From the NCBI GenBank assembly GCA_000998045.1, contig LCCS01000004.1:1-41851 (forward strand): DNA of 41,851 nucleotides. Reading direction: 5' to 3'. A model generated the notes under the pieces. It ran no database searches. It was not told the DNA's origin and saw nothing but the letters and a program-made list of their open reading frames with translations. A program made the translations under genes and the position numbers. The DNA comes from Parcubacteria group bacterium GW2011_GWD2_42_14. Its GTDB lineage: Bacteria > Patescibacteriota > Minisyncoccia > Phycocordibacterales > UBA12088. Positions 9,431-41,303 of this stretch are shown here, in pieces. Each line of letters starts with the position of its first letter. Positions within the stretch are counted from its first letter, which is position 1.

Positions 9431-9476
9431 GCACAAATAAAAAGGAACCTTTGGAAAGGTTCCTTTTTATTTGTGC
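9431..9476. repeat. perfect 22-bp inverted repeat with 2-nt loop
   Basis: GCACAAATAAAAAGGAACCTTT-GG-AAAGGTTCCTTTTTATTTGTGC. Confidence 0.9.
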
Positions 9477-9490
9477 CGAGGAGAGGACTT
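9470..9490. repeat. exact 21-nt copy of the tRNA-Leu(UAG) 3' end and flank (direct repeat of 9730-9750)
   Basis: TTTGTGCCGAGGAGAGGACTT present at both positions. Confidence 0.9.
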
Positions 9491-9733
9491 TTTCTCTACG
9501 AGAACGGTACATGTCTCACATCTCACTTCCTCCTCGTCGAGCTCGGAGTCGTTGCGATATGTTCGACATCTTCAAGTCCTTATAAGTCGAGGACTTGATC
9601 CTTACAGGATCAGTACACCTTTAGGATTTTCTAGTTCGTTACTCTCCTAGAATATCTCTAAAGGTCTTCAAGTCCTCTCCTCGGGCAAAACAATAATCGC
9701 GGAATGCTTGTCGCATTCCGCTCTTTTGTTTTG

Positions 9734-9814
9734 TGCCGAGGAGAGGACTTGAACCTCCATGGGTCACCCCGCTTGCTCCTAAGGCAAGTGCGTCTACCAT
9801 TTCGCCACCTCGGC
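9734..9814 (-). tRNA. tRNA-Leu(UAG)
   Basis: Minus strand GCCGAGG..., anticodon arm CTTGC-CTTAGGA-GCAAG, long variable arm, T arm with TTCAAGT loop. Confidence 0.93.
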
Positions 9815-19844: not shown

Positions 19845-20452
19845 CCTGTATCTATAAGCCGGATTCTGTACCAATTTTACCCACCGTAGGTGGTTGTAAA
19901 ATTGAGTACCCTGCCGAAGTTTTAACGAAGGCGGGTCCTATCAGAAAAACTAGGGGTACTCGAAATTACAACAACTTACGGTAGATAAAACAGGCGACAG
20001 TTATTTATCTTGTTCCGATGTTACCATCGGAATCTAGCGGCACTCCGAGCCGTATATGATAAGACTCGGTACGGCCTTGCACGTGAGTAAGGATTTTGCC
20101 GTTTCACTAAAACATTTGCAAAGCAAATGTTCGTGCGACCAACAAGCAAAGCTTGTTGGTTTAGCACCCACGTTACCGTGGTAATATTCCTTTTTACAAA
20201 GGAATTCTTTCCCTTTCGAGTCCGACGTCACTGCTCGCACCTCTATCCATTACAAACGACGGGCGTTACCCGCTACCCTTCTGCCGATTTCATCCACCAC
20301 AGGTGGCTAAAACCGAGTACCCTCCTTCGCACATAGTGCTACGGCGGGTACTCGATTTTGTTGCTGCCTGTGGCAGACAAAATCGGCACGTGTCCGGACT
20401 TTCCTCACCAAGCTCTAGCAAGCTAAGGCTCGGCGCAACTGTCCAATACAGG
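19845..20452 (-). ncRNA. rnpB: RNase P RNA, expanded (about 608 nt)
   Basis: Minus strand GAGGAAAGTCCGGACAC (P4 5' region), AGGGTAGCGGGTAACGCCCG, 3' ACAGAATCCGGCTTAT; P1 CCTGTAT/ATACAGG closes the ends. Confidence 0.92.
20105..20167. repeat. two-hairpin TAA/C-bulge module inside rnpB (spacer GCAC/GTGC)
   Basis: CAC-TAA-AACATTTGC AAA GCAAATGTT-C-GTGC-G-ACCAACAAGC AAA GCTTGTTGGT-TTA-GCAC. Confidence 0.9.
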
Positions 20453-27272: not shown

Positions 27273-27302
27273 GAGTCTTCCGATACTTAATATTATCTCA
27301 GG

Positions 27303-27387
27303 CGGAGGCGGAGGGATTTGAACCCTCGAAGGCTTTCACCTTGCCGCCTTTCCAAGACGGTGCACTAGACCACTATGCGACGCCTCC
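27303..27387 (-). tRNA. tRNA-Ser(GGA)
   Basis: Acceptor GGAGGCG/CGCCTCC, anticodon arm CCGTC-TTGGAAA-GGCGG, variable arm, T arm GAGGG-TTCAAAT-CCCTC. Confidence 0.92.
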
Positions 27388-27445
27388 CTAAAACATTTTC
27401 TATCCAATGTTCGGGCGAACATGTGAATCACATGTTTTTTAGCCC
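27386..27445 (-). repeat. two-hairpin TAA/C-bulge module forming the 5' leader of tRNA-Ser
   Basis: Minus strand GGGC-TAAAA-AACATGTGA..TCACATGTT-C-GCCC-G-AACATT..AATGTT-TTA-GGG(AGGCG). Confidence 0.85.
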
Positions 27446-39998: not shown

Positions 39999-40253
39999 AT
40001 GTTTCGTGTCTACATATTGTTGAGTCAAAAGGATAAGAAACTCTACGTAGGTTGCACATCCAACTTAGAAAAAAGATTCAAAAGGCATTTAGATGGATAC
40101 GTACAAGCAACAAAAAATAGAAGACCGCTTGTCTTAATACATTCTGAACAATATGATAACAAGGGAGAGGCTTTTCAACGCGAACGCTTTTTAAAAAGTT
40201 TATGGAGTGCTCGTGAAAAAAAGAAAATTCTCGAAAAATATCTAAAGAGCTAA
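39999..40253 (+). CDS. single-domain GIY-YIG endonuclease family protein
   Basis: FRVYILLSQKDKKLYVGCTSNLEKRFKRH...QRERFLKS. Confidence 0.88.
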   Translation: MFRVYILLSQKDKKLYVGCTSNLEKRFKRHLDGYVQATKNRRPLVLIHSEQYDNKGEAFQRERFLKSLWSAREKKKILEKYLKS

Positions 40254-40407
40254 AACGTTTTAGGAAATATGTTATAGGGCTAAAGCCTAAGCGAGCTATG
40301 CTCGCTGGCTCGCCCGAACGTTTTGGGAAATATGTTATAGGGCTAAAACATTTTGCTATGCAAAATGTTCGCCCGAACATGTTTCTTGGAGAAACATGTT
40401 TTAGGGG
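40247..40407 (+). repeat. array of TAA/C-bulge hairpins from the GIY-YIG stop codon to the tmRNA 5' end
   Basis: GGGC (40277, 40340) and GCCC (40312, 40371) spacers alternate between hairpins; final TTA-GGGG abuts tmRNA. Confidence 0.88.
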
Positions 40408-40606
40408 GATGACTGGCTTAGACAAAGGGATTGTTCTTTGAGATGCGCAAGCCGACCTCCAAACAAGTCGTAAAAAGGTTTGGAAACCAAATACGTGCAA
40501 ACAAAACTGCACGGGCTGTTGTATCACCGATACAATTCGCTCCCGCATTTGCGTAACACATAGTTACCCAAGCGGCGTCCTAACAGAAGTTTGCTGAGTA
40601 CTCTGC

Positions 40607-40669
40607 GGGCTAAAACATTTTGCTTGCAAAATGTTCGCCCGACATTGACCCTTGGTCAATGTTTAGGGC
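40607..40669 (+). repeat. two-hairpin TAA/C-bulge module inside tmRNA
   Basis: GGGC-TAA-AACATTTTGC TT GCAAAATGTT-C-GCCC-G-ACATTGACC CTT GGTCAATGT-TTA-GGGC. Confidence 0.92.
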
Positions 40670-40759
40670 GTAATATCACTCGACTATGAGGAAGTATGGT
40701 TACCATCACCGTACCACTCGAGACTAAGTATGGTAGGAAGATTAGATTTTGTTTGTTTC

Positions 40760-40814
40760 GCCCCTAAACATATTTTCTTTGAAAATATGTCGGGCAATCC
40801 GCAAGGATTTTGCC
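40760..40814 (+). repeat. second, partly degenerate TAA/C-bulge module inside tmRNA
   Basis: GCCCC-TAA-ACATATTTTC TTT GAAAATATGT-C-GGGC-AATCC GCAA GGATT-TT-GCC. Confidence 0.75.
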
Positions 40815-40925
40815 TACTCTTCCGAGATCCGCCAGCCTGGCGGAAAAAACAATCTACGCTTGTAGAACATTTCATAGAATTCTTTTTGGACTCGGGTTCG
40901 ATACCCGACATCTCCACCACTTCGC

Positions 40926-41048: not shown

Positions 41049-41303
41049 ATGCACTACGTCTACATTTTAAAAAGCAAGAAAGACAATTCGAAGTATATAG
41101 GCATGACCTGTGATTTAAAAAGCAGACTCCAAGAACACAACAACGGCGAAACGAAATCAAACAAATCTAAAATACCTTATGTTCTTGAATGGTACTGTTG
41201 TTTTAATAATAAGAGTAGAGCACTCTCTTTTGAGAAATACTTAAAATCTAGTTCAGGGCATGCCTTCAGAAACAAACGATTACTATCCACAGAACAGAAA
41301 TAG
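41049..41303 (+). CDS. single-domain GIY-YIG endonuclease family protein
   Basis: HYVYILKSKKDNSKYIGMTCDLKSRLQEHNNG...SFEKYLKSSSGHAFRNK; start at M27 of the supplied ORF. Confidence 0.9.
   Translation: MHYVYILKSKKDNSKYIGMTCDLKSRLQEHNNGETKSNKSKIPYVLEWYCCFNNKSRALSFEKYLKSSSGHAFRNKRLLSTEQK

Follow-up and report, generated by a model that had tools for sequence, protein, structure and literature searches.

The DNA analysed here, referred to as the window, is a stretch of 41,851 nucleotides from Parcubacteria group bacterium GW2011_GWD2_42_14 that carries genes for tRNA-Ser(GGA), tmRNA and RNase P RNA together with two GIY-YIG ORFs (Table 1). On the minus strand, nucleotides 27445-27386 read GGGCTAAAAAACATGTGATTCACATGTTCGCCCGAACATTGGATAGAAAATGTTTTAG and then GGAGGCG. 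The module found here runs from GGGC at 27445 to TTTTAG at 27388 and abuts the start of tRNA-Ser(GGA) at 27387. Within it the segment from CTAAA to TTTAG occupies 27442-27388, and the GG to its right (27387-27386) is formed by nucleotides 1 and 2 of the tRNA, the order at the junction being TTTA, a single G at position -1 and the mature GG. The sequence of the module had been given correctly overall in the original prediction, except that hairpin 1 is AACATGTG-ATT-CACATGTT, one loop base having been missed. The copy in the tmRNA leader ends in TTTTAG at 40404 and is followed by GGGGATGA, the tmRNA starting at 40405 (Rfam RF00023).

Table 1. Features of the window. hp = hairpin; an empty cell means that no entry was given.
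Feature	Position	Strand	Description or evidence
RNase P RNA (bacterial class A) with an element inserted in it	19917..20450	-	50.4 bits vs Rfam gathering score 100
Element copy inside RNase P RNA, changed address	20105..20166	+	CA-CTAAA-hp-TCG-TG-CGA-hp-TTTAG-CA
tRNA-Ser(GGA) gene, insertion host at 5' end	27301..27387	-	ARAGORN; Rfam
Element copy at tRNA-Ser(GGA)	27386..27444	-	GG-CTAAA-hp1-TCGCCCGA-hp2-TTTAG-GG
Small GIY-YIG nuclease ORF between smpB and tmRNA	39999-40253		begins right after CCCTAAAGT
Second, degenerate unit in tandem, upstream in tmRNA leader	40277..40342	+	GGGCTAAA-hp-TCGCCCGAACG...
Element copy at tmRNA 5' end	40341..40406	+	right-hand GG = tmRNA nucleotides 1-2
tmRNA (ssrA), host of several copies	40405..40919	+	Rfam
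Element copy inside tmRNA	40608..40668	+	GG both sides; empty in G004 (GATACGGGCGTAATAC)
Copy within tmRNA, inverted and degenerate in part; end approximate	40762..40815	-	GCCC-CTAAA-hp-TCGGGC...; G004 has TTTCGCCCTACCCTTCC there
Second GIY-YIG ORF shortly downstream of tmRNA	41049-41303		

The presence of one module in the same register before both tRNA-Ser(GGA) and tmRNA, as originally predicted, was borne out by the ARAGORN tRNA start and the Rfam tmRNA start. Chance placement is indeed unlikely, the pattern GGGCTAAA-n-CGCCCGA giving seven matches in the genome and none in a reversed control, with all seven at tRNA-Ser sequences or tmRNA. One of the seven, on contig C15 (L295, G000:C15:204-538), places the element in front of a 5' fragment of tRNA-Ser, an intact tRNA-Ser(GCT) lying about 85 nt further on. 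The claim of an identical offset from the RNase P cleavage site does not hold across the family. Among 26 cases with an ARAGORN call the end of the element fell at -1 in 11, at +1 (a one-base overlap) in 14 and at -2 in one. Since the offset to the RNA start varies, what fixes the register is a GG among the first two or three nucleotides of the RNA, and not the site of RNase P cleavage. At tRNA-Ser and tmRNA the register is shared because the GG duplicated on insertion makes up nucleotides 1-2 (or 2-3) of the RNA itself. Thus the link to mature 5' ends that had been proposed survives as an insertion specificity, two unrelated RNA genes having the same element beside their initial GG. It finds no support as a functional or RNase P link, given that copies with the same ends occur in the interior of tmRNA and of RNase P RNA, at the 3' end of a tRNA, before Shine-Dalgarno sequences and within the reading frames of housekeeping proteins. 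Of the leaders of tRNA-Ser(GGA) in genomes of the same genus, that of G007 is unrelated and without the module, and that of G004 keeps a decayed copy in which hairpin 1 and the centre are broken.

Rather than being a leader dedicated to RNase P or tRNA, the module represents a single copy of a double-hairpin element, very probably mobile, that is dispersed over many genomes of Parcubacteria (Paceibacteria). The element, of about 45-75 bp, has the architecture D-CTAAA-hp1-TCG-D'-CGA-hp2-TTTAG-D, where D is a dinucleotide, mostly GG, present on both flanks and D' at the centre is its reverse complement. Leaving the centre free, the pattern becomes CTAAA-hp-TCGNNCGA-hp-TTTAG. An exact-pattern scan of GTDB genomes, with GG flanks and a CC centre imposed by the pattern, returned 115 stretches. 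About two dozen of these were from a single Nitrospina MAG (JACAVV; L017, L025 and others), in which one short sequence without the hairpins recurs at many contig ends, and they were rejected as the likely outcome of faulty assembly or of a repeat in the genome. The scan otherwise yielded about 90 copies (89 distinct), nearly all from Parcubacteria, these being counts of copies in what are mostly metagenome assemblies and not of independent insertions. Across the order, 13 of 149 genomes contained the exact pattern, which in a few of them is a chance match. A phage origin was rejected as well, the single match to a viral contig lacking convincing flush hairpins.

In 133 of the 178 hairpins of the 89 distinct copies, Watson-Crick pairing was perfect until no more than 6 nt remained in the loop. 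There were 145 distinct 5' arms among these hairpins, the arms being free in sequence and palindromic nonetheless, and when arms were swapped between hairpins of the same length only 1.9% were perfect. The only fixed letters are the unpaired ones, CTAAA, TCGCCCGA and TTTAG. The module itself had no match in Rfam at the gathering threshold when the window and the loci were scanned. A half-element variant, with a 61 bp unit repeated four times in tandem, was seen near tmRNA at L175 (G051:C33).

The copies show a strong bias towards stable-RNA genes, either in where they insert or in where they persist. Of 73 hairpin-verified copies in GTDB genomes at least 31 lay within 3 nt of a tRNA or tmRNA 5' end (ARAGORN, Rfam), against about 0.02 expected if there are some 40 RNA genes per 0.9 Mb. 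The tRNAs concerned are those for Ser, Ala, Trp, Val and Arg. Copies were also found in the interior of RNase P RNA (two in L021 and probably one in L019), at the 3' end of a tRNA-Thr gene with CA in place of GG (L327) and ahead of Shine-Dalgarno sequences. At least 21 copies pass in frame through long ORFs, and LeuS, UvrA, GatB, KsgA and Tgt are protein hosts with Pfam support; smpB and an IleS-like synthetase (L235) are further hosts, recognised by sequence only. The KsgA motif SLGQNFL is split by the insertion to give SLG-[insert..LG]-QNFL. The length from CTAAA to TTTAG plus 2 is divisible by 3 in 21 of 22 long-ORF copies, a partly circular result as open frames favour multiples of 3. Insertions can also drop essential RNA genes below detection thresholds, as with the RNase P RNA of the window, which standard annotation would miss.

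Comparison with G004 revealed empty sites. The tmRNA of G004 has GATACGGGCGTAATAC at the site where the window has CTCTGCGGG-[CTAAA..TTTAG]-GGCGTAATATC, and TTTCGCCCTACCCTTCC at the place of the inverted copy. Three copies that are 93-96% identical were found at unrelated sites in one genome. Like a MITE, the element has terminal inverted repeats of 5 bp (CTAAA/TTTAG) and a target-site duplication, the 2-bp D on each side, with empty sites by comparison. There is no ORF within it, and the loci examined contained no autonomous version, no longer form with a gene replacing a hairpin and no parent insertion sequence with the same ends. That the module is a mobile element is, in our judgement, very probable.

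Partial copies of RNA gene ends were also noted. An antisense, hairpin-bearing partial copy of the RNA gene's own 3' end follows the gene in G004 (L136), in G007 (L133) and at tRNA-Ser of G007 (L147). Around the tRNA-Leu(tag) gene of the window (9463-9753) there are direct and inverted partial copies, of 28-41 nt, of one end of the gene, and these are of the same general type as the antisense copies of RNA ends seen near tmRNA.

The exact pattern dictates both flanks and centre, and only the second, relaxed search, which left the flanks and the central dinucleotide free, is unbiased. In the resulting set of 45 copies both flanks were the reverse complement of the centre in 32, one flank in 10 and neither in 3. 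Over all 130 copies, ten had a centre other than CC, and only eight of these match it on both flanks; three of the eight share a single RNase P site and may go back to one ancestral insertion. A TG centre with CA flanks occurs four times, in the RNase P RNA of the window, in L253 and L325 (same RNase P site) and at the tRNA 3' end of L327. A GC centre with GC flanks occurs twice (L252, L303), and GA is paired with TC in L257 and AC with GT in L260. The exceptions L145 and L326 retain GG flanks and have centres one letter off CC, which look like point mutations of CC, as would be expected of decay after insertion. When the centres of all 130 copies were shuffled, none of 100,000 trials reached the observed match count. 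A further copy, in L034, has a centre of GTCC with flanks of GGAC. Several types of D can be present within one genome: the window has GG at tRNA-Ser and tmRNA and CA within RNase P RNA, and G054 has GG, CA and GC.

Taken as a whole, the data are probably best explained by a non-autonomous double-hairpin mobile element of Paceibacteria, about 45-75 bp long, which inserts beside D and has a complementary D' at its centre. Insertion would take place next to the dinucleotide, usually GG, and leave D on both sides; the in-frame net gain of the element plus 2 bp is an observation, as are the architecture, the dispersal, the empty sites and the covariation of D and D'. D' may act as an internal guide by base pairing with the target D in single-stranded DNA, and a single two-letter guide between two hairpins would then serve both ends. 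Guidance of insertion by D' is somewhat more likely than not. The hairpins would be recognised by their shape, like the ends of IS200/IS605 elements, and the enzyme responsible would act in trans. The bias to RNA genes could reflect either targeting, through GG starts and single-stranded or transcribed DNA, or the purging of insertions elsewhere. In its most specific form, which we put forward tentatively and would not yet bet on, the proposal is of a self-addressed mobile element smaller than any other known, a double hairpin of about 50 nt without genes whose two-letter DNA guide, common to both ends, would dictate the site by pairing, could be re-addressed by two base changes and would be driven by a host or trans enzyme other than RAYT. 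It is possible, but rather doubtful, that the mobilising enzyme belongs to the HUH/Y1 group.

The covariation could also arise if D' were not a guide but were copied from the target at insertion, by fold-back synthesis or template switching, or were kept complementary later, D-C...G-D' closing each hairpin. D-C does pair with G-D' in both halves, multiple types of D coexist in single genomes and the perfect arms of free sequence resemble the products of template switching; an origin by repeat conversion or template switching has been proposed for the coding palindromes of Nematomorpha mitochondria (PMC6649704). However, CTAAA and TCG are conserved and mutually non-complementary, and simple fold-back copying of a half-element would not yield them. 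The preference for GG would require an additional rule, and there are mutated centres whose flanks are unrepaired (L145, L326). We regard a copied or later maintained D' as rather unlikely.

Another reading is that of a REP/BIME which RAYT-type Y1 transposases encoded in the host genomes would mobilise in trans, and the hairpins, paired in inverted orientation and bearing an unpaired tag that is conserved, are indeed reminiscent of BIMEs. Y1 genes were present in 24 of 28 element-bearing genomes compared to 237 of 392 overall (Fisher p = 0.003, for genomes that are not phylogenetically independent). Against this, G465, with eight copies and 98% complete, had no Y1 match, nor had G499, G230 or G209, and the tag is CTAAA/TTTAG as opposed to the GTAG or CGTC of REP elements (PMC3733652). 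The RAYT-type genes inspected (L196-L221) were mostly flanked by their own, different hairpins and the rest by none; among 26 Y1 loci not one had the element flanking a RAYT gene as in a REPtron, such flanking hairpins as there were being different. RAYT/Y1 as the sole mobiliser was rejected in spite of the association, given the four positive genomes without Y1 and the other REPs carried by RAYT genes, and we consider mobilisation of the element as a REP/BIME improbable. The Parcubacteria RAYT-type Y1 genes flanked by hairpin repeats of their own (L200-L221), such as ATGAAGAAGGTTNAACCTTCTTCAT in L206 and L209, are REPtrons in their own right.

Spread of the element by the small GIY-YIG nucleases adjoining tmRNA loci is very improbable. 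At 16 tmRNA loci an ORF of this kind adjoins the element on its upstream side, in some cases beginning immediately behind CTAAA, and the window ORF at 39999-40253 is among these, but no such ORF was present in the loci of the other 57 copies in the set. The ORF therefore goes with the tmRNA locus and not with the element, and GIY-YIG was rejected as the mobiliser. A functional leader aiding the processing or folding of pre-tRNA and pre-tmRNA can scarcely be credited: although the module abuts mature 5' ends exactly, is placed in the transcribed leader of tRNA-Ser by a promoter-like sequence upstream and is kept at the G000 and G004 orthologues, a processing signal was rejected on the variable offset and on the copies in RNA interiors, coding sequences and 3' ends, and the module is missing before the same tRNA in G007, has hairpin 1 and centre broken in G004 and is as patchy across the order as the exact-pattern count indicates.

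The proposed element would be a class of mobile element not yet described in the open-access literature searched (subscription papers were outside the search), widespread in Parcubacteria, organisms whose genomes are thought to be stripped down. Here selfish DNA persists within RNA genes and protein genes of the most essential kind. The covariation of flank and centre amounts to a testable rule for the choice of target by a minimal element, with the guide logic of IS608 in a simpler form, the central two letters behaving as if the element carried its own address.

Several known systems show partial similarity. The REP/BIME elements of RAYT (TnpAREP) are also gene-free and consist of short hairpins, paired in inverted orientation, that carry conserved unpaired tags, but their tags are GTAG/CGTC and REPs are mostly extragenic, whereas the element described here has CTAAA/TTTAG and sits in RNA genes or at in-frame sites. 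Mitochondrial repetitive or double hairpin elements and the Nematomorpha coding palindromes share freely varying, perfectly paired arms in intergenic or coding positions (PMC2800124, PMC6649704); they are mitochondrial, and complementarity of flank and centre is not known to have been reported for them. In IS608 an internal guide pairs with the flanking target, and a change of guide changes the target (PMC5934647). Like the present element, IS200/IS605 members such as IS608 have hairpins and a short internal guide complementary to the flanking target and insert beside the target motif and not within it. In contrast, the element here is much shorter, has no transposase gene and has its putative 2-nt guide between two hairpins instead of one 5' of each. 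Rickettsia palindromic elements are found in frame in proteins and also in the genes for tmRNA and RNase P RNA (PMC2229807), and they and the Wolbachia palindromic elements are likewise small, gene-free palindromic repeats lying in frame in conserved proteins and in those two RNAs. The Rickettsia elements are 105-146 bp with a sequence conserved within families, and their target duplication is marked as unknown in a review, whereas the element here is 45-75 bp, its arms are free in sequence, its two hairpins enclose a central dinucleotide, and its GG-type flank covaries with that dinucleotide. The closest known systems are the Rickettsia palindromic elements in habitat and the guide/target pairing of IS608 in logic.
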